This document shows, piece by piece, positions 2,063 through 11,971 of a stretch of 64,000 nucleotides of DNA (position 1 is the stretch's first letter; each line of letters begins with the position of its first letter). The DNA is taken from the NCBI GenBank assembly GCA_026003195.1, contig BPGU01000004.1:444317-508316 (forward strand), in the 5' to 3' direction. The notes beneath the pieces were generated by a model. That model ran no database searches. It was not told the DNA's origin and saw only the letters and a list, made by a program, of their open reading frames with translations. Made by a program: the position numbers and the translations under genes. Origin of the DNA: Armatimonadota bacterium. GTDB taxonomy: Bacteria > Armatimonadota > HRBIN16.

Positions 2063-2354
2063 CTCCGTTTTTCCTCTCTGAGACCAAGTTCTGGAAAGGC
2101 ACAGGCGCAGAGGTCGCCGACTTCGAACAGAGAGCAGAAAACACAGGCTCGTTCCCCGCAAGAGGAAAAGTTCCCTGCTGCACCGCCGTTGTGCGTTTCC
2201 AGTGCATTATAGCAGGTTTTCACAGTCACCTGCTACCCCATTCGGGGAAACTCGGTTATAATGAAGTTACATCGCATCGGAGGACGACAGCCTTTTGAGA
2301 GGCACTGTGAGGCGATGTTCGGGTGCTTGTTCGCAACGGGAGGAGGATTCAGAC

Positions 2355-3386
2355 ATGTTTCAGAAAGACCAGCCGAAGGTACGCCCGAAAACATTCCACG
2401 TGATTGTGATTATCTACGACCCCGTGCTGCGTACACGCGGCAACCAGAAGCTGACGCAGTACATGAAGTGGAACGACCCGCACAAACTCACGCAGGCGAT
2501 GATAGACGACGCCCGGGAGACCAGCGGTGGCTACGTGAACTACCGGGTAGTGGAAACCATAGAGTACGACGGCTTCCCCACCAAGCGCACGGGCTTTACC
2601 TACACCGAGCAGCAGTTCCTGGAGGTGTGGGAGAAGGACCGCAATAAGCACGTGCCCGGCATGACCAGCTTCAAGCGCATGTTTGACCAGTTTGACCTGT
2701 ATCGCAAAATCCGCAGCAAGAACGTGAGCGAAATCTGGCTGTGGGGCGCGCCGTATTTCGACTGGGACGAACTTCACTGGAAGACACCCGGCGACCGCAT
2801 CCCCTACCAGACGGACAATCCCTGGTTCTACCGACCCTACGACATTCCCGACGTGGGCAAGACGCTGTGGATTATGGGCTGGAACTACGAGCGCGGCGAG
2901 GGCGAGATGCTGGAAAGCTACTGCCACCGCATCGAGAGTGTGCTGTCGCTCACCGTCGGCAAGGGCATCTGGGATCACAAGCGCAACGGCGATAACATCT
3001 GGAACCGCTTCACCCGGGTGGACAAAGACTTTCCGGGCGAGTCGGAGGTGGGTAGCGTACACTACGCGCCCAATTCGCGCAGCGACTATGACTGGGATAA
3101 CCCCACCCCTGTCTGGAGCTATGCGGACGACTGGTTGACCTATCCCCACCTGCCGCGCAAGCGCAAGCTGATGAGCAACAAGGATTGGGGTTCGTTGCCT
3201 GGAGTTCCCGCCATCGTCCGGCACCACAAATGGTGGATGGCGCATATTCCCAAAGCACCGGGAGTGACCGACGGCTTTTACAACAACTGGTGGGAGTACA
3301 TTGTGAACTACGACGAGGCAATCAAGAAGCTGCCTCCACCGGGAGCGACCTTCCAGAAGGCGAAGGTGGCGATGTACGCGGAGTAA
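2355..3386 (+). CDS. Conserved hypothetical protein, Trp/Tyr-rich
   Basis: A 343-residue protein starting at an ATG preceded by GGGAGGAGG at about ten bases; an earlier in-frame ATG at 2295 has no such site. There is no signal peptide or membrane helix. It is rich in Trp, Tyr and Asp, with segments such as VSEIWLWGAP, LWIMGWNYERG and GEMLESYCHR. From memory, similar motifs occur in secreted conserved-hypothetical proteins of actinobacteria and Chloroflexi, but I cannot assign a function. A TATAAT -10-like hexamer lies at 2257-2262 in the 291-base gap shared with the divergent kinase, without a good -35. The gene ends four bases before the left tRNA-containing repeat of the mobile element, so it marks the left chromosomal flank. 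Confidence 0.75.
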   Translation: MFQKDQPKVRPKTFHVIVIIYDPVLRTRGNQKLTQYMKWNDPHKLTQAMIDDARETSGGYVNYRVVETIEYDGFPTKRTGFTYTEQQFLEVWEKDRNKHVPGMTSFKRMFDQFDLYRKIRSKNVSEIWLWGAPYFDWDELHWKTPGDRIPYQTDNPWFYRPYDIPDVGKTLWIMGWNYERGEGEMLESYCHRIESVLSLTVGKGIWDHKRNGDNIWNRFTRVDKDFPGESEVGSVHYAPNSRSDYDWDNPTPVWSYADDWLTYPHLPRKRKLMSNKDWGSLPGVPAIVRHHKWWMAHIPKAPGVTDGFYNNWWEYIVNYDEAIKKLPPPGATFQKAKVAMYAE

Positions 3387-3390
3387 AAAA

Positions 3391-3471
3391 GATGGCGCCC
3401 TCGGAGGGATTCGAACCCCCGACGCCCTCCTTAGGACGGAGGCGCTCTGTCCACTGAGCTACGAGGGCGCG
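3391..3471. repeat. Left attachment repeat (attL-like), 81 bp
   Basis: Identical over 81 bases to 10386-10466 in the same orientation, and the sequences diverge immediately on both sides. It covers the whole 76-base tRNA-Arg plus two bases past the CCA and three bases before the 5' end. This is unusually long for a core repeat, since most tRNA-targeting integrases duplicate only the 3' part. Confidence 0.9.
3393..3468 (-). tRNA. tRNA-Arg (anticodon CCT), left copy
   Basis: Cloverleaf with acceptor GCCCTCG paired to CGAGGGC, T8-A9, anticodon stem CCTCC/GGAGG around loop GTCCTAA (anticodon CCT, decoding AGG), T-loop TTCGAAT, discriminator G and encoded CCA. It is identical to the right copy. 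Its 5' flank is element DNA, so it would need a promoter supplied by the element, and I see no convincing one. It may be a silent copy. Confidence 0.93.
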
Positions 3472-3508
3472 AGATGTTGTACCCTGTTCGCCTGATTGCC
3501 CCAGAATC

Positions 3509-3524
3509 ACACAACATCTTGTGT
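3509..3524. repeat. 16-bp near-palindrome, left arm site
   Basis: ACACAACATCTTGTGT. Its exact reverse complement occurs at 10341-10356 near the other end. Each copy is itself nearly palindromic around ACA-CAA/TTG-TGT. The position, between the tRNA repeat and the integrase start, fits an integrase or excisionase arm-binding site or an operator. Binding is inference. Confidence 0.55.
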
Positions 3525-3553
3525 CCACACAAACACAAGCAGGAGGGCACAAG

Positions 3554-4483
3554 ATGGAGCAGAACGCCTCTTTTCGAGTCACTGACACAAACCCGATTTT
3601 GCTGGCATTCCAGCTCTGGCAGGAACACCTGCACGCGAAAGGGTGCACCGTAAAGACCCTCAGCACCTACAGGGAACTGGTGCGTCCCTTCGTGACCTAC
3701 CTCTGCCAGTGCGCCCCTGACCTGGACAGCGTAACCCCTTCGCACATCGTGAACTACCTCAGTCAGCGCAGACAGTGCGGACTCTCCTCACACACCCTGC
3801 ATACCGACTGGCAGAAGGCACGCGCCTTCTGGAACTGGTGCTTGCGCATGGAACTGACTTCCAATAACCCCTTCGCGAAGGTGGAGCCACCCAAGCGCGA
3901 ACAAGTGCTCAAACCTGCCCTCACCCTTGAAGAGGTACAGAAACTGCTGCAAGCGTGTGAGGGCAGAGAGTGGTTGCCTCTTCGCGACAGAGCACTGATT
4001 CTGCTGCTGCTGGACACCGGTCTGCGCATCCACGAGGCGCACTCGTTGCGTGTGGGTGACGCCATGCAAGACACACTGGTCATCAAGGGCAAAGGCGGTA
4101 AACAGCGCGTGGTGGTGTTGAGTGCAGAGGTGAGGCTTGCGGTGCAACGTTACCTGAAGGCTTACCAGACACAGCAGCAAGTGAAACTGCACACGGACAG
4201 TCCCCTGTGGTGGGGAGCCTCTGGCGCGTTGACTTTGCACGGGATCAAACTGGCAGTGCGCAGAGCGGGCAGACGCGCTGGCTTGAAACTGGGAGCACAC
4301 CAGTTGCGCAGAACGTTCGCCACGTGGAGCCTGCGCAACGGCATTGACTTGGAAAGACTGCGCTTGCTCATGGGTCACAGCGACATCAAGACCACACAGC
4401 AATACCTGTCGTTGGTGGAGCAAGACCTCAAGCAGGCACACCAGCAGCATAGTCCGTTGAATCTTCTCAGAGGACGCAGGTAG
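3554..4483 (+). CDS. Tyrosine recombinase / integrase
   Basis: A 309-residue site-specific recombinase expected to integrate and excise this element at tRNA-Arg. An N-terminal SAM-like core-binding domain covers about residues 15-105 and the catalytic domain about 120-300. The catalytic residues are all visible: Arg in TGLRIHEAHSL, Lys in the beta-hairpin KGKGGKQR, HQLRR (H-x-x-R), the second His in MGHSDIKTT and the nucleophile Tyr in QQYLSL. The ATG at 3554 has AGGAGG eight bases upstream. A GTG at 3521 in frame would add 11 residues but overlaps the palindromic arm site. The gene points away from the left tRNA. The downstream perfect inverted repeat at 4490-4558 may end its transcript. Confidence 0.93.
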   Translation: MEQNASFRVTDTNPILLAFQLWQEHLHAKGCTVKTLSTYRELVRPFVTYLCQCAPDLDSVTPSHIVNYLSQRRQCGLSSHTLHTDWQKARAFWNWCLRMELTSNNPFAKVEPPKREQVLKPALTLEEVQKLLQACEGREWLPLRDRALILLLLDTGLRIHEAHSLRVGDAMQDTLVIKGKGGKQRVVVLSAEVRLAVQRYLKAYQTQQQVKLHTDSPLWWGASGALTLHGIKLAVRRAGRRAGLKLGAHQLRRTFATWSLRNGIDLERLRLLMGHSDIKTTQQYLSLVEQDLKQAHQQHSPLNLLRGRR

Positions 4484-4489
4484 AGGGGA

Positions 4490-4558
4490 GGCGGGCGCGT
4501 GGACTGGACTGGCGCTCTTTCGGACAGATTCAGGGAAATCGGCGTCCACGCGCCCGCC
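4490..4558. repeat. 15-bp perfect inverted repeat after integrase
   Basis: GGCGGGCGCGTGGAC (4490-4504) pairs perfectly with 4544-4558 across a 39-base loop. There is no T-tract, so it is not a classical intrinsic terminator. It could be a protein-binding site, a structured RNA or a terminator of another kind. GC-rich hairpins of related base composition recur in this element at 8267 and 9379. Confidence 0.6.
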
Positions 4559-4616
4559 CCTGCATAGGGAAAGTAGGTGAAACAAATTCGGACGTAGAAT
4601 CGTCTATATTGTTGAA

Positions 4617-4684
4617 GCGTGTCGGTAGGCGTGTGCACTGCCTCTTAAGTGTCCACTGCCCTGTCCAGTGGACAACCGACACGC
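4617..4684. repeat. Nested inverted repeats upstream of regulator gene
   Basis: An outer 10-bp arm GCGTGTCGGT (4617-4626) pairs with 4675-4684. Inside it, GTCCACTG (4651-4658) pairs with 4666-4673. This double hairpin ends 27 bases before the start at 4712, after a TATATT -10-like hexamer at 4605-4610. It could be an operator for the encoded HTH protein or a structured 5' leader. Confidence 0.5.
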
Positions 4685-4711
4685 GAACAGCACCTGACAG
4701 GGAGGTGCAAC

Positions 4712-5602
4712 GTGCTGATTGACGACCTGAAGCAGCTCAAAGACTGGCGTGACCTCAGGAACCCTCAATTGCTGGAACGCGCCCAGCGGTTTGCCGACTG
4801 GTATTGCAGCATATGCATTGACGCCAATGAGAAGCTTCGGTTGGGAACCGAACTCTGGCAACAAGCACGAAACGACCTGCGTGTGTTTGCTCAGATTCTT
4901 CAACACTCCAGCAGCCTCCTCGGCTGGCAGTTGATTGCAGAAATCGTTTTGGTAGGTGCTGAGATTGGGACACGTTACCGCAAAGAGATTATGTCCTACG
5001 CACGGGTACTGAATTGGTATAGCGGACTTCAGGTGCAAAATGAATGGGATGCTGCTTTTGCGGTGTGTGCATACGAGTGTTGGTGGAAAGTGTTTTGTTC
5101 AAGCGAAGCGCTAAACCTGCTGCTCTGTGCAAATTCCTACAATCCAGTCAGTTCCCGTCTGTTAGCAGCAGAATTGCTGGCAGCACGTTATGATGCTACT
5201 ACAACAGATGTCTTCGCCGCTGCTCTCGAACAGTTGGGTTGTGAACCGAAGAGAAATGAGAGCGAACCACTAAGGCGTGAGGCCCGCATCAACCGCAACC
5301 CGGGTGGCACTGGATGCAACCAAGAGCGCGAGATTGCCGAGAGCCAGTTGCCCCTTCCCGAAGATGCCCCTTCACCACTGGAAACCGCAATCAGCGACGA
5401 GGCTGACCCGGCAGAGGTGGTGGCTGACAGAGACGTCGTAGAGCGTGCGATCGCCCGTTTCGGAAAGCGTACCGCAGACCTCTTGCGCCTGATGCTACAA
5501 GGCTACACCGCTACCGAAGCTGCCCAAGAGCTGGGCATCTCCCCTGCCACTGCCCGCAAGCTTCTGGAACGCGCCCGCAAACAATTTTCACGAAACCCCT
5601 GA
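4712..5602 (+). CDS. Sigma-70 region-4-like HTH protein of the element
   Basis: A 296-residue protein. Residues about 1-170 are helical and not recognisable, with several Trp and Cys. A linker rich in Glu, Pro and Asp follows. The last 60 residues form a sigma region-4 / LuxR-like helix-turn-helix: LLRLMLQGYTATEAAQELGI then SPATARKLLERARKQF. I chose the GTG at 4712 because GGGAGG lies just before it; the frame stays open back to 4649, but that stretch forms the nested hairpins. It lies between the integrase and the replication cassette and may be a transcription regulator or divergent sigma factor. No region 2 is evident, so a free-standing sigma role is uncertain. Confidence 0.65.
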   Translation: MLIDDLKQLKDWRDLRNPQLLERAQRFADWYCSICIDANEKLRLGTELWQQARNDLRVFAQILQHSSSLLGWQLIAEIVLVGAEIGTRYRKEIMSYARVLNWYSGLQVQNEWDAAFAVCAYECWWKVFCSSEALNLLLCANSYNPVSSRLLAAELLAARYDATTTDVFAAALEQLGCEPKRNESEPLRREARINRNPGGTGCNQEREIAESQLPLPEDAPSPLETAISDEADPAEVVADRDVVERAIARFGKRTADLLRLMLQGYTATEAAQELGISPATARKLLERARKQFSRNP

Positions 5603-5630
5603 AAAATCGCCTGAAACTGTACACGTTTTG

Positions 5631-5673
5631 CCCCCTCTCACCTGCTTATATAGTGGGAAGCAAAGAGAGGGGG
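5631..5673 (+). promoter_or_regulatory. Possible promoter and RBS-sequestering hairpin
   Basis: TATAGT at 5649-5654 with a weak TTGCCC about 15 bases upstream suggests a promoter in the 78-base gap. A perfect 9-bp inverted repeat, CCCCCTCTC (5631-5639) and GAGAGGGGG (5665-5673), has its 3' arm as the ribosome site of the 5681 ORF and is followed by TTTTCG. It could therefore mask translation or act as a weak terminator. This is sequence inference only. Confidence 0.3.
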
Positions 5674-5680
5674 TTTTCGT

Positions 5681-5881
5681 ATGGCGAAGGCAATCCTTGT
5701 GACCGACATCCGGCACAGTGACCGCCCCCTGCTGGCGAGCAGTGACCCTGAAGTGTTGCGAGCCGTTGGGGACGCCATTAAGGCACTGTTTGACCGGTGG
5801 GAGGCAGAAGCACGCGCCGACCTTGAGGTAGAACGCCTGAGGCGACTGGTGGAGGTGGACGAGGGAGAGGACGAGCGGTGA
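5681..5881 (+). CDS. Small acidic hypothetical protein of the element
   Basis: A 66-residue protein with ATG preceded by GAGAGGGGG. It is predicted helical, with a highly charged second half (RWEAEARADLEVERLRRLVE) ending in an acidic tail VDEGEDER. No family is recognised. It sits between the HTH protein and the RepA-like ATPase, and a strong hairpin follows 26 bases after its stop. It could be a small regulator or accessory replication protein. Confidence 0.5.
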   Translation: MAKAILVTDIRHSDRPLLASSDPEVLRAVGDAIKALFDRWEAEARADLEVERLRRLVEVDEGEDER

Positions 5882-5907
5882 GGCGGTGGAGCCTGCCACA
5901 AAGTGGA

Positions 5908-5935
5908 AGCCCGCTCTCCGACCAGAGAGCGGGCT
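5908..5935. terminator. 11-bp GC-rich hairpin before the helicase gene
   Basis: AGCCCGCTCTC (5908-5918), a six-base loop and the perfect complement at 5925-5935. No T-tract follows on the forward strand. Lying between the 5681 ORF and the ATPase start at 5970, it could attenuate transcription into the ATPase gene. Its presence also argues against the in-frame GTG at 5886 as the ATPase start. Confidence 0.45.
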
Positions 5936-5969
5936 GCGGACACAACTTTCTCAGCGGGGGACTGCCAAA

Positions 5970-7376
5970 ATGAGTATACCACAACAGACAAATGGGAACA
6001 AGAATCTGCAGGCACGCGCGAAGGAAGCCACAGACACCATCTTGCGCGAGGTCAACCGACACGCACCCGAAGACCAGTCCGGCGCACTGCAGCAGCTGCT
6101 GGGTGACTGGCTCGCTACCAACCGCGACCCCATCCTGCGCGAACTGGTGCTCGGTGAGGTGTCGCGACGGCTCCGGCTACCCGTCGGAAGCCTCAAACAG
6201 CTGGTGAAACCCGAACCAAACCTACCTAACACTATAGGGTGTGTTATGTTAGGTAGGTTGTATACCCTCAAAGAGCTGCGTGCCCTGCGCGAACACCAGA
6301 GCGAAACCGCTGAAGAGAGCCTTCCCCTGTTCGGCTTGAAAGGCATCATCCGCAAGGGCAGAACGCACCTGCTCGCTGGCAAGCCCCGTGTGGGCAAAAC
6401 CGAAACCCTCTTTCGCGGTGGAATGCTCCACTGGCACAACGAGCGCGTGCTCTACCTCTCGGAAGAGTATGAGGATGACTGGAGCATCCGACTGTCTTCC
6501 TTCGATGAGGATGAGTTGCCGGAACACGTGGACATCTGGCTGTGCGCGGGTGAACCGCGAGAGGCACTGTTGCAGAAGATTCAGCAGGGTTCCTACAGCG
6601 TGGTGGTGCTGGACACCGTGCGCGGCGTCTGGCGGTTGCGTGATGAGTTGCACCCCTCTCGCGTGGTAGACGACCTCATGCCTCTGATTAGTCTGCAGCG
6701 TCAGATGGGGTTCACGCTCATCTGTCTGCACCACGAGCGCAAGGCGGAAGGAGAGGCGATTACCGACCGGTTCGCGGGTACAAACGCGCTGTCGGCAATG
6801 TTCGACATGCTCATCAGTCTGGCTCCGAAGGGCGAAGACGGGTTACTGCTGACCTACGAGGGACGCACCAGCAAGGGCGGTAGTCTGCTTCTGCAGTGGA
6901 AGGGTGATGAGCTGTGCTACGTGGGCGAGGCAGACCTCGTGGAGTTCCGAACACTGGCGCAACGGGTGGAGGGCATCATCTACAGCGCGGGCAGAATGCT
7001 TACCACGAAAGAGGTCTGGCAAGAACTGGGCGAGCCACGTCCGTCGCTTTCACACATGAAGAACGTCTTGGAGCATCTTCTGGAGAACGGACGTATACAG
7101 CGCGAGCCAAAAGAGGAGCGCAAAGGTGCTACCTACCGGTGGTATGCGTCCACAAACCTACCTAACATAACACATCCTATAGTGTCAGGTAGGTTGGACG
7201 CGCCCACAAACCTACCTAACATAACACATCCTATAGTGTCAGGTAGGTTGGAACACCCCTCCGACTCTTCTGTCCAGCCCGAAGAAGACCCCTTCACGCA
7301 AGCCGAAGACGGTTTGCTGGCATACGACCTCGTCAGCGGGCACTGGTACCCCGCAGGCAGCGGAGGTAGTCCGTGA
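5970..7376 (+). CDS. RepA-like RecA-fold helicase/ATPase with embedded palindromes
   Basis: A 468-residue protein resembling AAA_25/RepA-type hexameric replicative ATPases. An N-terminal helical domain (1-80) precedes a RecA-like core with Walker A AGKPRVGKTET, Walker B SVVVLDTVRG and the sensor-like ICLHHERKAEGE. A C-terminal winged-helix-like region lies at about 330-390. Its likely role is to unwind the element's replication origin. The ATG at 5970 follows AGCGGGGGA; a longer GTG-started frame would include the hairpin at 5908-5935. Three 37-bp palindromic repeats are embedded in frame: one in the linker before the ATPase core (residues about 84-96) and two tandem near the C-terminus (about 396-426). 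They encode NLPNTIGCVMLGRL in one orientation and NLPNITHPIVSGRL in the other. The stop overlaps the next start (TGATG). Confidence 0.8.
   Translation: MSIPQQTNGNKNLQARAKEATDTILREVNRHAPEDQSGALQQLLGDWLATNRDPILRELVLGEVSRRLRLPVGSLKQLVKPEPNLPNTIGCVMLGRLYTLKELRALREHQSETAEESLPLFGLKGIIRKGRTHLLAGKPRVGKTETLFRGGMLHWHNERVLYLSEEYEDDWSIRLSSFDEDELPEHVDIWLCAGEPREALLQKIQQGSYSVVVLDTVRGVWRLRDELHPSRVVDDLMPLISLQRQMGFTLICLHHERKAEGEAITDRFAGTNALSAMFDMLISLAPKGEDGLLLTYEGRTSKGGSLLLQWKGDELCYVGEADLVEFRTLAQRVEGIIYSAGRMLTTKEVWQELGEPRPSLSHMKNVLEHLLENGRIQREPKEERKGATYRWYASTNLPNITHPIVSGRLDAPTNLPNITHPIVSGRLEHPSDSSVQPEEDPFTQAEDGLLAYDLVSGHWYPAGSGGSP
6221..6257 (+). repeat. 37-bp palindromic repeat, copy A (forward)
   Basis: The ends CCTACCTAAC and GTTAGGTAGG are perfect 10-bp inverted repeats, with flanking AA/TT extending the match. 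Its reverse complement matches copies B and C except at two positions. It keeps the ATPase frame open and lies in the linker between the N-terminal domain and the Walker A core. Confidence 0.85.
7157..7193 (-). repeat. 37-bp palindromic repeat, copy B (reverse)
   Basis: Reverse-orientation copy of the 6221-6257 repeat, with one mismatch between its arms (GTCAGGTAGG instead of GTTAGGTAGG). It is part of a 54-bp tandem duplication with copy C, which gives two 18-residue protein repeats. Confidence 0.85.
7211..7247 (-). repeat. 37-bp palindromic repeat, copy C (reverse)
   Basis: Identical to copy B over all 37 bases and exactly 54 bases downstream. The flanking CCACAAA and TTGGA are also shared, so B and C arose by tandem duplication of a unit that already contained the palindrome. 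Confidence 0.85.
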
Positions 7377-7696
7377 TGAGCTTCGGGGAACTGCGGAAGG
7401 AAATCATGTTGCTGTTGCGCTGGCACGCGGGCACACTGCGACTGCCCATGGTACGGTCAGAGGAGCATACTTACCTGCTGGCGGTGCTTGACCTGGTAGA
7501 CGACCTGAAGGCGACCCTGCAGGCGTATATTGCCGAGCGCAGCATCCGGCAGGACGTAGAAGCCCTTGAATCACGTCACGAAGCGCAGGTGCAGCAGATG
7601 CTTGCTGATGAGGAGCGCGTGGTGCGTACGTTCCAAGCAGCACTCAAACACGAGAAACCGCTGGAGCAGCGACTGCGTGAGGAGGTGGAGGTATGA
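7376..7696 (+). CDS. Small helical hypothetical protein of the element
   Basis: A 106-residue protein whose ATG overlaps the ATPase stop (TGATG), with GGAGG upstream, so it is translationally coupled to the helicase. It is predicted almost entirely helical with a coiled-coil-like C-terminal half (about 45-106, many Glu, Gln, Arg). No family is recognised. Position and coupling suggest an accessory factor for the ATPase, such as a loader or primase partner. This is inference. Confidence 0.65.
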   Translation: MSFGELRKEIMLLLRWHAGTLRLPMVRSEEHTYLLAVLDLVDDLKATLQAYIAERSIRQDVEALESRHEAQVQQMLADEERVVRTFQAALKHEKPLEQRLREEVEV

Positions 7697-7788
7697 GCAC
7701 ATCTTGCCCGACCCGTCAGGGGACGGTTGACATAGAGCATACCAACCCGACCGACGGTAAACCAACACACAAGGAGGTAACGACATGA
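7693..7788 (+). CDS. 31-residue mini-ORF coupled at both ends
   Basis: ATGA overlaps link it to the preceding gene (ATG 7693 inside stop 7694-7696) and to the next gene (its stop TGA 7786-7788 overlaps ATG 7785). The product starts MSTSCPTRQGTVDIEHTNP and is polar with no hydrophobic segment. GGAGGTGGAGGT precedes the start. It may be a true small protein or a leader peptide carrying ribosomes to the OB-fold gene. The double overlap makes chance less likely but does not prove expression. Confidence 0.45.
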   Translation: MSTSCPTRQGTVDIEHTNPTDGKPTHKEVTT

Positions 7789-8255
7789 AACTGGTGGTGA
7801 CGGCACAAGCACAGACCTTGCCCGACGACGTCTACACGGTGGAACTGGTGGACGTGCGGGAGCAGCAAGGAGCCTACGGCGAGCAGTTCGTGTGGCAGTT
7901 GCGCGTGGCGGAAGGCGAGTTTGAGGGCACGGAACTGCGAGCGTGGACGAACGCCAGCACGGCACTCAATGCGAAGGCGGTGAAGTGGGCAGCAGCGTTT
8001 GCGGGCAAGCCCTTCGCAACGGGCGACACGATTGACTTGGACGCGCTGAAGGGCAAGCGTGCCCGGGCGGTAGTGCAAGCGAAGCAGACCGCTGACGCGC
8101 GCGTGTTTGCGCGGGTGACCGACATTCTGCCCGTTCGGCGCGTGCAGGTCGGTCAGCGGGTCAAGCATGGCATGGTCGCGGTTCCTGCCACCAGTCAGGG
8201 GTTCTACGAGATGGCGGACGACGAAGACCCTGACGACCCCTTCGCGCAGGCGTAA
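7785..8255 (+). CDS. OB-fold-like, phage DUF669/SSB-type protein
   Basis: A 156-residue protein with AAGGAGG seven bases before the ATG. The pattern DVYTVELVDVREQQGAYG, then QFVWQLRVAEGEFEGTELRA, then a helical segment and LKGKRARAVVQAKQ resembles phage DUF669-type single-strand-binding proteins, whose core is an OB fold. The C-terminus is acidic (EMADDEDPDDPF), as in SSB tails that recruit partners. Lying beside a helicase and a VRR-NUC nuclease, it probably binds single-stranded DNA during element replication or repair. The family assignment is by pattern, not alignment. Confidence 0.6.
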   Translation: MKLVVTAQAQTLPDDVYTVELVDVREQQGAYGEQFVWQLRVAEGEFEGTELRAWTNASTALNAKAVKWAAAFAGKPFATGDTIDLDALKGKRARAVVQAKQTADARVFARVTDILPVRRVQVGQRVKHGMVAVPATSQGFYEMADDEDPDDPFAQA

Positions 8256-8266
8256 GAGAGGGAAGT

Positions 8267-8289
8267 GGGCAGGCGCGTGCGCCCTGCCC
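8267..8289. terminator. GC-rich hairpin between element genes
   Basis: GGGCAGG (8267-8273) pairs with CCTGCCC (8283-8289), with additional GCGC pairing possible in the loop, and C-rich sequence follows. It lies in the 68-base gap between the OB-fold gene and the next ORF. It may be a partial terminator or a processing hairpin. Confidence 0.4.
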
Positions 8290-8323
8290 GCCCCCAAAAC
8301 ACCAACGAAAGGAGTGTATAGAC

Positions 8324-8671
8324 ATGCAGACAGTTACACGAACAGCAAGGCGAGTCCTCTACACCCGTGACGGCAGGCACAGCGGTTGCGTGCTGGATGG
8401 CTTCCGACTGGTGCGCCGTGTGCAGGCGAGCAAGCACCAGTTGCGACAGCCCCCAGCGTGGGCGTTTGAGCGCCACATTCTGGAGCAGGCACACGAGGCA
8501 GGCGCGTCACTGGTGGAGGTGCACGACGTGGAGAGTGGCATCACCTACATCGCGCCACTGGCGACGCTGTGGCAGAAGGGCATCCGCATCCAGCGCGGAC
8601 ATGGCGAGCAGATTGCCCTGCCGTTGAACCTGTGGCACAGGGCAGACCCACGACAGCCGAAGCTCTTCTAA
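8324..8671 (+). CDS. Hypothetical protein of the element
   Basis: A 115-residue basic protein (many Arg and His) with AAAGGAG ten bases before the ATG. Its composition (SKHQLRQPPAWAFERHILEQ, then SLVEVHDVESGITYIAPLAT) suggests a small alpha/beta fold. No known family is recognised. It is encoded between the OB-fold and VRR-NUC genes in the same direction, so a DNA-transaction role is plausible. Confidence 0.6.
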   Translation: MQTVTRTARRVLYTRDGRHSGCVLDGFRLVRRVQASKHQLRQPPAWAFERHILEQAHEAGASLVEVHDVESGITYIAPLATLWQKGIRIQRGHGEQIALPLNLWHRADPRQPKLF

Positions 8672-8682
8672 AACCGCCGGAA

Positions 8683-9021
8683 ATGGCTCCAGAAGGCTCG
8701 TACAGACGCGAAAAGGTCAGTGCCCATAGCCAGCACGCCCGTGCCATCGTCTGCTACTTACAGAAGCGTGGCGCGTGGTGTGCCCGAATTCGTGGCACAT
8801 GGGGACAGCGACGCGGTCTGCCTGACATTCTGGCGTGCTGGCGTGGGCACTTGATTGCCATTGAGGTCAAGACCGGCAAGCACGCCAGACTGTCCCCACA
8901 GCAGAAGCGGGAACACGAGGCGCTACGTGCTGCAGGCGCGACGGTGCTGGTGGGCGATGCCACTGAAGTCGTGCGCCAGTTGGAAGCCCTTACAGGAGAG
9001 CCTCAGGGCAGGTTGCTGTGA
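8683..9021 (+). CDS. VRR-NUC domain nuclease
   Basis: A 112-residue protein consisting almost entirely of a VRR-NUC fold, a PD-(D/E)XK-type nuclease domain found in phages and in FAN1-like enzymes. The core is visible: RIRGTWGQRRGLPDILACW (catalytic Asp in GLPD), then LIAIEVKTGKHARLSPQQ (Glu-x-Lys, EVK), and the terminal helix ATVLVGDATEVVRQLEAL. The start at 8683 is 12 bases after the preceding stop with only a weak CCGGAA site, so translation may depend on coupling. An open frame extends to 8569 but overlaps the previous gene. Such single-domain nucleases often act as junction-resolving or structure-specific enzymes in replication modules. Confidence 0.85.
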   Translation: MAPEGSYRREKVSAHSQHARAIVCYLQKRGAWCARIRGTWGQRRGLPDILACWRGHLIAIEVKTGKHARLSPQQKREHEALRAAGATVLVGDATEVVRQLEALTGEPQGRLL

Positions 9022-9055
9022 GGCAGGGAATAAGTGCTTGAGGAGGTGAGCAGCA

Positions 9056-9289
9056 ATGACACACAACCTTTGCAGGGACGCTGTAGTCAACATGCAGCAC
9101 GCCACAGGTGCGTTACGGCGGTTGTATACTCTGGTGGCGATGGGCGCGGTTCCTTCGCGTGAGGACTACGCGCAGGTGCACCGACAGGCGACGGAACTGA
9201 ATCAAGCCTTCCACCGTCTGTTGAAGGCACTCAAGGCGCAGGGCATGTTTGAGGATGATTCAAGCAGTCTACCACCAGCGGAGCGTTAG
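9056..9289 (+). CDS. Small helical hypothetical protein of the element
   Basis: A 77-residue protein with a strong GAGGAGGTGAG ribosome site. It is helical (NMQHATGALRRLYTLV, EDYAQVHRQATELNQAFHRL) with an acidic-polar tail. No family is recognised. Its TAG stop lies within the first unit of the 12-bp repeat array, so the array directly follows the coding region and would be transcribed with it. Confidence 0.6.
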   Translation: MTHNLCRDAVVNMQHATGALRRLYTLVAMGAVPSREDYAQVHRQATELNQAFHRLLKALKAQGMFEDDSSSLPPAER

Positions 9290-9363
9290 CGCAGGCGTTA
9301 GCACTAACGTTAGCGCAGGCGTTAGCGCAGGCGTTAGCACTAACGTTAGCGCAGGCGTTAGCG
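9286..9363. repeat. Iteron-like array of 12-bp repeats
   Basis: Six complete 12-mers begin at 9286 in the order a-b-a-a-b-a, where a is TTAGCGCAGGCG and b is TTAGCACTAACG, followed by a partial seventh unit. This is the same as two 36-bp direct repeats. Unit b with its flank contains the palindrome CGTTAGCACTAACG. A short AT-richer stretch with duplicated GTTTACAAAA follows at 9417-9436. This arrangement resembles an iteron origin or partition site; function is inferred. Confidence 0.7.
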
Positions 9364-9378
9364 TAGTGAGAGCATGAC

Positions 9379-9406
9379 GCAGGCAGGGCGCACGCGCCCT
9401 GCCTGC
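9379..9406. terminator. Strong hairpin ending the rightward operon
   Basis: GCAGGCAGGGCG (9379-9390), loop CACG, and its perfect complement at 9395-9406. It lies after the last rightward gene and before the oppositely oriented sigma-like genes. No T-tract is present, but position and stability favour a terminator. Confidence 0.5.
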
Positions 9407-9497
9407 TAACTCAGGGGTTTACAAAAGTTTACAAAACTGGACACTTTTTGCGCTCACATGCCCCACACCCCACACCCCACCACTGCCCTGCGTGAGG

Positions 9498-9827
9498 TTA
9501 GTCGGTGTTTTCAGGAGGAAGGAGGGCTTCGAGGGAAACGACTTGAAAACGCCGAAGCTGTTTGGCGCAGGCTCGTTCAAGATCACGCAGGCAGTAATCC
9601 ATTTTCCACGAGAGCCACCGGCGCAGGACAATCTGCCCTGTCCATGCGCTCCACGCTTTCCAGAGGGCGATGCGCAGCTCCTGCTCTATGTCACCCATGT
9701 CCATGCCCATACTGTTCAGGCGGGCGACCTGAGGGTGTCTCACACGCAGGTAGTGCTCCAGCACCTTTTCAGCTAAGGCATCCTCATACGCAGGGTTGTC
9801 CTGCAGGAGCGTGTCCAGTCTCATCAT
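9498..9827 (-). CDS. Sigma region-2-like small protein
   Basis: A 109-residue leftward protein. The segment MGDIEQELRIALWKAWSAWT looks like sigma-70 region 2.1-2.2 (core-binding helix, D-x-x-Q-E), followed by basic RRWLSWKMDYCLRDLERACA resembling region 2.3-2.4. There is no helix-turn-helix region 4. It lies 85 bases downstream of the region-4-like gene at 9913-10170, in the same direction. The pair may work as a two-subunit sigma factor, as known for SigO-RsoA in Bacillus. Either of two adjacent ATG codons could be the start, and the ribosome site is weak. Confidence 0.55.
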   Translation of the reverse strand: MMRLDTLLQDNPAYEDALAEKVLEHYLRVRHPQVARLNSMGMDMGDIEQELRIALWKAWSAWTGQIVLRRWLSWKMDYCLRDLERACAKQLRRFQVVSLEALLPPENTD

Positions 9828-9912
9828 TCATTACATCGGCTGCCGAGAATTGTAAGAAAACTCATGATTGAAACAAAATGAGACAGATCTGTCTCACGGT
9901 TCGTAGCTTGCC

Positions 9913-10170
9913 TTACATCACGTGAGGCGCGAGCAACTGCAGGCACTCGCGCAGGGTGTGTGCAATGTCTGACTTGCGCCGGTTCATGATGAAGGCGATG
10001 GTCTTCAGGTCGTAGCCGAAACCGTAACGTAAGGCGAGCACAGCAAGCGGTTCACAGCCTGCGGTGGTATAGAGGTGCTGTAAGGCACTCTGAATGTCAG
10101 CGGTTCGCTCCACCTGCAGAAGGTCTTCCAGTGCGCTGAGGTCAGGCGGTTCCACGTATTCGGTTGACAT
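9913..10170 (-). CDS. Sigma region-4-like HTH small protein
   Basis: An 85-residue protein starting at the ATG at 10168-10170, which has AGGGG about six bases upstream; the open frame back to 10293 lacks a comparable site. The C-terminal part, LAVLALRYGFGYDLKTIAFI then MNRRKSDIAHTLRECLQLL, resembles the sigma-70 region-4 helix-turn-helix. The N-terminal half is acidic. With the next gene (region-2-like) it may form a split sigma factor, or it may be an independent DNA-binding repressor near the right end of the element. Confidence 0.6.
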   Translation of the reverse strand: MSTEYVEPPDLSALEDLLQVERTADIQSALQHLYTTAGCEPLAVLALRYGFGYDLKTIAFIMNRRKSDIAHTLRECLQLLAPHVM

Positions 10171-10340
10171 CTTCTGCCCCTGTATGCTATGATGGGAGTG
10201 CCTGCGCGGTGGCAGAGCACCCGCAGGCGTGGCGTCCAGCAGGGTGGGTGCTGAACGCGGGTACAGGTTACCGCAAACAGTTCCCGCTGTCAAGCCCCTT
10301 GTTCAGAACGCCTCTTTTCTGAGAATTGTCAGTCTGCGGA

Positions 10341-10356
10341 ACACAAGATGTTGTGT
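10341..10356. repeat. 16-bp near-palindrome, right arm site
   Basis: ACACAAGATGTTGTGT, the exact reverse complement of 3509-3524. It lies 30 bases inside the right tRNA repeat, while the left copy lies 38 bases inside the left repeat. The near-symmetric placement suggests a shared binding protein at both ends. Confidence 0.55.
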
Positions 10357-10385
10357 CCCTGTGGGGTAAGAGGTAGCATATATGG

Positions 10386-10466
10386 GATGGCGCCCTCGGA
10401 GGGATTCGAACCCCCGACGCCCTCCTTAGGACGGAGGCGCTCTGTCCACTGAGCTACGAGGGCGCG
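10386..10466. repeat. Right attachment repeat (attR-like), 81 bp
   Basis: Identical to 3391-3471 over 81 bases and in the same orientation. The right flank is chromosomal, just before the GHL10 gene, and supplies the 5' side of the tRNA. This copy is therefore likely the original tRNA locus with its native promoter. Confidence 0.9.
10388..10463 (-). tRNA. tRNA-Arg (anticodon CCT), right copy
   Basis: Same 76-base cloverleaf as the left copy, with encoded CCA and anticodon CCT (codon AGG). Its 3' end faces the mobile element and its 5' flank is chromosomal, so it is probably the expressed copy. Confidence 0.93.
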
Positions 10467-10540: not shown

Positions 10541-11971
10541 ATGCGTCTGGAGCAAACACTTCCTTCTGTAGAGCGGGAATATCGCGGTATGTGGGTGGCT
10601 ACTGTGGACAACATCGACTGGCCCTCCAAACCCGGGCTTCCGTCCGATGTGCAAAAAGCCGAACTGATAGCGATACTGGACAGGGCGGCGGAACTGAGGT
10701 TCAACGTGATCGTGCTGCAGGTGCGCCCGGCGTGTTCGGTGCTGTACGACTCCAGAATCGAGCCCTGGTCCGAGGTGCTGAGCGGAAGGATGGGTAAGCC
10801 GCCCGAACCCTACTACGACCCTCTCGCCTTTGCGGTGGAAGAGGCGCACAGGCGCGGCATGGAGCTCCATGCGTGGTTCAATCCCTATCGGGCACGACAT
10901 CCCTCCGAGAGGTCGGAGATTCATCCCCAGCACATCAGCAAGCGACGCCCCGAACTGGTCAAGCAGTACGGACGATACCTGTGGCTGGACCCTGGCGAGC
11001 CCGATGTGGTGGAACATTCCCTCTCGGTGATGCTGGAAGTGGTGAAGCGCTACGACGTGGACGGCGTGCATATCGACGATTACTTCTACCCCTATAAAGA
11101 GCGCGACGAAAAGGGCAATATCCTCGATTTCCCCGATGAACCCAGCTGGCAGCGCTACCGCCGCTCTGGCGGCAAGCTGAGCCGTGACGACTGGCGCAGG
11201 CAAAATGTGGACCGCTTTGTGGAAAGGGTCTACCGCGAAATCAAGGGCACCAAACGCTGGGTGAAGTTCGGCATCAGCCCCTTCGGTCTGTGGCGACCGG
11301 GCTATCCCCCCCAGGCACGCGGCTTTGACGCGTACTCGGAGCTCTACGCCGACTCGCGCAAATGGCTGCAAGAAGGCTGGTGTGACTACTATGTGCCTCA
11401 GCTGTATTTCAAGAGAGACCATCCCACCCTCAGCTTCCCTGTATTGCTGAAGTGGTGGGTGGAGCAGAATACACGGGGCAGACATATCCTCGCTGGCAAC
11501 TTCACCAGCAAGGTGGCAGACGGCAGCAGCACCGCGTGGGATGCGCAGGAGATTGCCGAGCAGGTACGCCTGACGCGCCAGCAGGCAGGTGCAGTGGGCA
11601 ACATCCACTTCAGCGCACGGGCGTTCATGCAGGACAGGGGAGGCATCTGCAAGCTGATTCGAGACCTGCACGCCCAGCCTGCGCTCACTCCGCCTTCGCC
11701 CTGGCTGAGCCGTTCCAAGCCGCGCTCGCCTGCGGTTCAGGCAACCCGATCTGCCGGGGGAGCCATTCAGCTTCGATGGCAGGCTCAGGGAAGGCACCCT
11801 GTAGCATGGTGGGTAGTGGCTTACCGCAACAACGGTGAGTGGACAGTGCAGGCATTGCCCGCACACAGCGAGGGCTATATCGTGCCTCCGGTGGCAAACC
11901 TCGCTTTCGTGTGTGTGATAGACCGTTATGGTAATGCCAGCGACTGGGCAGCAGCAGAGATGACGGGGTGA
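10541..11971 (+). CDS. GHL10/DUF187-type glycoside hydrolase-like protein
   Basis: A 476-residue protein of the GHL10 (YngK, formerly DUF187) group. It has a TIM-barrel-like N-terminal region of about 330 residues starting EYRGMWVATVDNIDWPSKPG, with strand motifs NVIVLQVRPACSVLYDS, GMELHAWFNPYRARHP, VDGVHIDDYFYP and VKFGISPFG. The C-terminal part (about 390-476) looks like a fibronectin-type or Ig-like domain. GGGAGG precedes the ATG. No signal peptide is obvious, although most relatives are exported. The family is thought to act on polysaccharides, but the substrate is not established. It begins 75 bases right of the element's attR. Confidence 0.85.
   Translation: MRLEQTLPSVEREYRGMWVATVDNIDWPSKPGLPSDVQKAELIAILDRAAELRFNVIVLQVRPACSVLYDSRIEPWSEVLSGRMGKPPEPYYDPLAFAVEEAHRRGMELHAWFNPYRARHPSERSEIHPQHISKRRPELVKQYGRYLWLDPGEPDVVEHSLSVMLEVVKRYDVDGVHIDDYFYPYKERDEKGNILDFPDEPSWQRYRRSGGKLSRDDWRRQNVDRFVERVYREIKGTKRWVKFGISPFGLWRPGYPPQARGFDAYSELYADSRKWLQEGWCDYYVPQLYFKRDHPTLSFPVLLKWWVEQNTRGRHILAGNFTSKVADGSSTAWDAQEIAEQVRLTRQQAGAVGNIHFSARAFMQDRGGICKLIRDLHAQPALTPPSPWLSRSKPRSPAVQATRSAGGAIQLRWQAQGRHPVAWWVVAYRNNGEWTVQALPAHSEGYIVPPVANLAFVCVIDRYGNASDWAAAEMTG

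Follow-up and report, generated by a model that had tools for sequence, protein, structure and literature searches.

We analyzed a 64,000-nucleotide stretch of DNA (the window) from an Armatimonadota bacterium (GenBank assembly GCA_026003195.1, contig BPGU01000004.1) that harbors a 7.08-kb element at a tRNA-Arg(CCT) gene. We consider it probable (roughly 0.7) that this element is an integrated phage satellite, one of an Armatimonadota family of such elements, and that its split sigma factor acts in place of the terminase small subunit (TerS) of its sisters. The comparisons below establish an element with a tyrosine integrase that occupies a tRNA gene, whereas sister species have no insertion there. 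The satellite interpretation is favored over a plasmid because sister elements encode TerS, a homologue of the element's sigma region-2 protein lies upstream of phage genes for TerS and the terminase large subunit (TerL), one sister shares its iterons with a prophage (L061 and L128), and a phage contig and another sister have closely matching nucleases (C8 and L063). A preliminary description based on the DNA letters had proposed either a phage satellite or an integrative plasmid, from a phylum that is poorly sampled. The empty sites, arm-like sites and integrase family show a site-specific mobile element of an Armatimonadota genus, integrated at a tRNA gene, and the evidence from the family favors the first of the two options. 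Loci are denoted here by L numbers, genomes by G numbers (the window belongs to G000) and contigs by C numbers.

Integration at a tRNA gene

The element is bounded by two 81-bp direct repeats, both with the tRNA on the reverse strand, which are identical at 81 of 81 positions and are the only full matches of this sequence in the 4.58-Mb genome, in agreement with the preliminary description of identical repeats with complete tRNA-Arg(CCT) genes. Each repeat spans the 76-nt tRNA gene, whose CCA is encoded, with 3 nt on its upstream side and 2 nt past its end. The left copy (3391–3471) contains the complete tRNA at 3393–3468 plus the other 5 nt and has element DNA as its 5′ flank, while the right copy (10386–10466, with the tRNA at 10388–10463) retains the native upstream region conserved in two genomes of the same genus, G005 and G003, and is therefore most likely the expressed host gene. 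Those two genomes have an empty site in which the left flank is followed by a single tRNA-Arg(CCT) and the right flank, and the flanking genes (2295–3386 on the left, 10541–11971 on the right) are conserved across the genus. The insertion is therefore real and the ends of the element are exact; related genomes with a single tRNA-Arg(CCT) at this locus were one of the checks that the preliminary description had suggested. Since the element carries a whole tRNA copy, one intact tRNA is present whether the element is in or out.

Near both ends, about 120 bp inward of each outer end, lies the palindromic site ACACAACATCTTGTGT (left, 3509–3524), with a matching 16-nt palindrome on the right (10341–10356), and the consensus recurs at both ends of most related elements. 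In a search that allowed up to two mismatches, 13 of the 15 elements compared had the core motif ACAACATNTTGTGT within each end, mostly 70–145 bp from the outer boundary; the right end used for L061 is approximate, and contig ends truncate L073 and L074. These palindromes are presumably arm-type sites of the integrase.

The preliminary description had called the duplication of a whole tRNA unusual. The oddity is real but not unique, as whole copies are also seen in at least four other family members: L072 and L078 at tRNA-Leu(CAG), L131 at tRNA-Lys and L134 at tRNA-Ala. Across the family, the identity between tRNA copies spans 56–94 bp and always takes in the 3′ part of the tRNA, with 56–58 nt in the Arg(TCG) and Gly(GCC) elements and about 69–77 nt in the Gly(TCC) and Met elements. 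Whole-tRNA duplication is thus, on these comparisons, one end of a graded range and recurrent in the family. A simple account would be that the attachment (att) sequence was extended until a complete tRNA copy was carried. Identical copies need not mean a recent insertion because tRNAs change slowly. Our literature searches on whole-tRNA att duplication gave nothing usable.

Gene content and replication module

Profile searches support the genes named in the preliminary description (integrase, RepA-like ATPase, nuclease, OB-fold or single-stranded DNA-binding (SSB)-like protein and sigma-like proteins), with the SSB and sigma assignments weak alone and stronger through their homologues. All genes up to position 9289 are on the forward strand. 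The first encodes the tyrosine integrase (3554–4483; 309 aa from ATG; PF00589, 1.3e-29; phrog_1, 3e-49), in which the R, K, HxxR, H and Y residues are present by eye. It is followed by a regulator with a C-terminal sigma-70 region 4 or helix–turn–helix (HTH) domain (4649–5602; PF08281, 4.4e-7), with homologues in L061, L069, L073, L077, L078 and L079, and by a small conserved open reading frame (ORF) of 66 aa (5681–5881) that is 91% identical in L061/L069.

The replication gene, repA (5970–7376), encodes an AAA_25 helicase (PF13481, 1.5e-10) that lacks the Prim-Pol domain of sister Rep proteins, is 63% identical to the Rep of L075 over the helicase, and probably ends in a winged helix, judged by eye. 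In the sister Reps, a Prim-Pol domain (PF09250, seen in L069 and L078) is joined to the AAA_25 helicase, and the N-terminal part of the Rep in genome G200 resembles, by eye, a zinc-finger/TOPRIM primase. Within repA are three in-frame copies of an iteron-like 41-nt quasi-palindrome (iteron sequence AACCTACCTAACATAACAC), one inverted (6219–6259, reverse strand) and two on the forward strand (7155–7195, in a 54-nt tandem unit, and 7209–7249). We also considered whether the palindrome is one of a class of intragenic palindromes dispersed through the genome and rejected this, as it occurs in repA only. A second array of seven 12-nt units, GCGTTAGCGCAG (9283–9366), is likewise found nowhere else in the genome. 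The 3′ portion of rep holds one of the two densest repeat clusters in 14 of 15 elements (weakly in L073; absent in L075), and in most elements these clusters are far above those of dinucleotide shuffles. The repeat sequence differs among most elements. The repeats embedded in rep may be read as an origin bound by RepA.

Downstream of repA, and overlapping its stop codon, is an ORF of 107 aa (7373–7696) with no homologue found in our search. The SSB-like protein (7785–8255) has a match to phrog_378 (0.03) that is weak alone, while its homologue in L078 reaches 3e-4; it has between 93% and 36% identity to its counterparts in nine sisters, and several of these are fused to an RNase H domain. The next gene, orf115 (8324–8671), is the hallmark of the family. 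It has no Pfam match, and its predicted structure weakly resembles Hjc, RecU and restriction-endonuclease folds (Z 6.2; Foldseek E 0.05). We considered assigning it as a nuclease and did not, these fold matches (Z about 6) being too weak, and no conserved ExK motif was seen by eye. A VRR-NUC/Hjc-type nuclease (8683–9021; PF01870, 1.5e-6; phrog_93, 4e-18) and orf77 (9056–9289), which is conserved in the sigma-type elements and present as a fragment in L071, come next on this strand. A perfect hairpin, GCAGGCAGGGCGC-ACGC-GCCCTGCCTGC (9379–9406), sits between the convergent operons and is probably a bidirectional terminator.

The reverse strand encodes a sigma region-2 protein of 109 aa (9498–9827) and a sigma region-4 protein of 85 aa (9913–10170). 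None of the element ORFs tested against Pfam and PHROGs profiles has a credible match to head, tail, portal, capsid or terminase families, which bears out the earlier statement that virion genes are missing. Relaxase, conjugation and partition genes are also missing among the Pfam and PHROGs matches.

A family of related elements

A further 14 well-resolved loci were identified in the genus, distributed over about eight tRNA genes. Close relatives of the integrase occur throughout the genus, most of them at tRNA genes, namely Gly(TCC), Gly(GCC), Gly(CCC), Met(CAT), Arg(TCG), Leu(CAG), Thr and Arg(CCT). The integrase clades track the tRNA target: the window integrase groups with that of L073, both at tRNA-Arg(CCT), with support of 100/99. 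The common cassette comprises the integrase, regulator, Rep, SSB, orf115 and VRR-type nuclease, and not every element has all of these. Genes for orf115 are present in 18 of 291 Armatimonadota genomes. Two of another Armatimonadota family, G200 and G212, have elements of about 7–8 kb between tRNA copies with the same cassette.

The cargo of these elements is mosaic. L061 and L069 come from two species and have 96.8% identity over 7.1 kb, yet their sigma modules differ. The genes beside the window site differ by 11–16% at the DNA level between the two host species, and the pair thus appears to show a recent inter-species transfer and mobility within the family. The family is apparently undescribed. 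A literature search returned no paper joining 'phage satellite' with Armatimonadota. IMG/VR scans with orf115, SSB, the region-2 sigma protein and the integrase gave only distant orf115 contigs (L107 and L108) that do not have the cassette.

Links to phages

Five sisters (L062, L063, L070, L072 and L130) encode TerS with an adjoining amidase gene (phrog_4044, 5.5e-24 in L063), L131 and L133 have TerS matches at 8e-11 and 3e-6, and four others (L064, L071, L076 and L078) have a weaker TerS-like HTH protein. The region-2 sigma protein is found in the window element, L061, L069, L073 and two loci in G009. Its gene adjoins the region-4 gene in all five clear loci, while the sixth, L073, ends at a contig end; both gene orders are seen, differing between two lineages. 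The region-2 profile match of the window copy is weak alone (PF04542, 0.011), with firmer values in its homologues (8e-6 in L069, 5e-8 in L061 and 2e-9 in prophage L128), and a PDB profile search with the region-2 alignment gave weak sigma-factor matches only. For region 4, the window protein aligns with its homologues and matches phrog_3512 at 0.005 for a longer ORF. Support comes mainly from one homologue, that of L061 (PF04545, 3.5e-5), just below the Pfam cut-off, and a PDB profile search with the region-4 alignment returned nothing meaningful.

The phage association of the region-2 protein comes from the same genome. Prophage L128 encodes a homologue, 54% identical to that of L061, immediately ahead of the genes for TerS, TerL, the portal and the major head protein, and phage contig L065 has a distant region-2 protein in the same place, directly upstream of its terminase genes. 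Closely paired TCAACAGTAA iterons occur in two places genome-wide, sister L061 and prophage L128, and the nuclease of phage contig C8 is 79% identical to that of sister L063.

The prophage L128 is located at about 651–667 kb of contig C1, with TerS, TerL, portal and capsid genes and an IS110-like transposase at its left edge; a 400-aa ORF at L128:6606–7808 is largely made of iteron-encoded repeats (NSKPVTVD). The phage-like contig C8 (34.6 kb) has TerL and a VRR-NUC gene, and C14 (11 kb), which is L065, has an integrase, a primase-helicase, a sigma-2-like ORF and a small TerS-like ORF before TerL.

Interpretation as a phage satellite and alternatives

In the life cycle that we propose, the integrase would act on the tRNA core and the palindromic arm sites when a helper phage is active, and a circle would be excised. 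The RepA-like helicase would bind the iterons in its own gene and start replication with the SSB of the element, using a primase supplied by host or helper, as RepA has no Prim-Pol domain. The VRR-NUC nuclease, perhaps together with orf115, may process replication or packaging intermediates. The two-part sigma factor, related to the late-operon protein of the phages, would activate the late genes of the helper or bring them under its own control and so stand in for the TerS of the sisters, and element DNA would then be carried in helper particles. We infer these steps of excision, replication, packaging and sigma action from gene content. As a tentative extension, to which we give less credence than to the satellite assignment itself, satellites of this family may be matched to their helper phages by shared origin iterons, with one branch having swapped TerS for the two-part late-switch sigma factor.

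Several observations weigh against a satellite. The window element has no terminase gene that we could find, and our searches of the genome, the genus and IMG/VR found no phage, and hence no candidate helper, that has matching iterons or a closely related sigma pair. The region-4 assignment of the window copy is a weak call, the AlphaFold model of this protein alone is unusable (pLDDT 53), and prophage L128 has no recognizable region-4 partner beside its region-2 gene. The excised circle, particle and transduction are predictions from sequence, and the genes and iterons that these elements have in common with phages could stem from shared descent or from gene exchange instead of parasitism.

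The main alternative is an integrative plasmid that integrates, excises and replicates by itself, spreads by transformation or mobilization, and uses the sigma pair for its own expression. An integrase with Rep, SSB and a nuclease is also a plasmid-like set, as are iterons within rep, and the missing terminase would be expected. However, no gene for a relaxase, conjugation or partition is among the profile matches, TerS and amidase are encoded by sisters that have the same core, and the region-2 homologue is located in a phage late operon, which together make a plasmid unlikely. A defective prophage, derived from a phage of the L128 or L065 type and decaying in place after loss of its structural genes, would account for the integrase family shared with L065, the region-2 protein shared with L128 and the Rep without its Prim-Pol domain. 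Yet the ORFs are open, the ends exact and the arm sites intact, many elements of several species, and of a second Armatimonadota family, have the same compact architecture without structural genes, and recent inter-species transfer is indicated for one sister pair; we regard decay as very improbable. A plain chromosomal duplication of the tRNA with unrelated genes between the copies would explain their identity, but is scarcely credible given the contiguous empty site in two sister species and an integrase with symmetric arm-like sites at both ends.

Comparison with known systems

Most known phage satellites come from a small number of well-studied phyla, and the family would add a phylum that is largely uncultured. 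It would do so with numerous integrase clades, each specific to a single tRNA, and with interchangeable late modules: TerS plus amidase, a TerS-like HTH protein, or the split sigma factor. Iterons common to a satellite and a prophage in one genome would also allow a purely genomic guess at satellite–helper pairs. A split sigma factor borne by a satellite, if true, would be an unusual and testable way of exploiting a helper; our literature searches on satellite-encoded sigma factors gave nothing usable.

The window element resembles P4-like satellites in its tRNA integration, replication by its own helicase with iterons, lack of capsid genes and putative dependence on late genes. Their hallmarks (alpha primase-helicase, Psu, delta and AlpA) give no Pfam or PHROGs match in the element, and the Reps differ, being of the Prim-Pol or zinc-finger/TOPRIM type in the sisters, with iterons inside rep, and without a primase in the window element. 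Phage-inducible chromosomal islands (PICIs) likewise have an integrase, a replication module and TerS, the last found here in sisters only (L062, L063, L070, L072, L130, L131 and L133). In contrast to PICIs, the window element is smaller, has the split sigma pair where sisters have TerS, and has no PICI regulator that we identified. The late sigma factors of T4 (gp55/gp33) and SPO1 (gp34/gp33) are also split into separate region-2 and region-4 proteins and associated with phages; the comparison is at the level of sigma domains only, and here the two genes lie side by side on a 7-kb element without structural genes, with putative roles in RNA polymerase binding and late transcription.

In one account (PMC13376191), phage satellites are defined as att-bounded elements of about 7–20 kb with an integrase and regulatory and replication genes, no virion genes, and mobilization in helper particles. 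The window element is att-bounded and 7.08 kb long, with its own integrase, regulatory and replication genes and no structural genes, and helper mobilization is predicted. The phage-inducible chromosomal minimalist islands (PICMIs) of Vibrionaceae encode an integrase, AlpA and a DUF3987/DUF5906 primase and integrate next to fis (PMC10803314). They are alike in minimal size, integrase, replication gene and absence of capsid-remodeling genes, but the window element lies at tRNA-Arg, has an unrelated AAA_25 Rep and no AlpA match, and is thus not a PICMI. Canonical tRNA-targeting tyrosine integrases, as cataloged in Islander (PMC4383910), also insert into tRNA genes that are restored by element sequence; there the displaced tRNA copy is a fragment, whereas it is complete in the window element and ranges from 56 nt to complete in its sisters.

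Additional loci

Two copies of a duplicate integrase region, with 39% identity to the window integrase, were found in the same genome (L066, near 12 kb of C1, and L067, near 27 kb of C9). They have no tRNA alongside, and a similar copy is present in G005. Outside the phylum, a locus of Anaerolinea thermolimosa (L112, 9–16.5 kb) has an integrase beside tRNA-Pro together with orf115, a TerS-like gene and ORFs that look helicase- and primase-like by eye, and is possibly a satellite in Chloroflexota.

A gene resembling the terminase large subunit (phrog_2) is present in all 10 genomes of the genus. The copies at G000:C3:420337–421566 (L129:9275–10621) and in G002 are apparently orphans among non-phage genes, and the G002 copy adjoins a gene that flanks the window element. 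This orphan gene is possibly a domesticated terminase.

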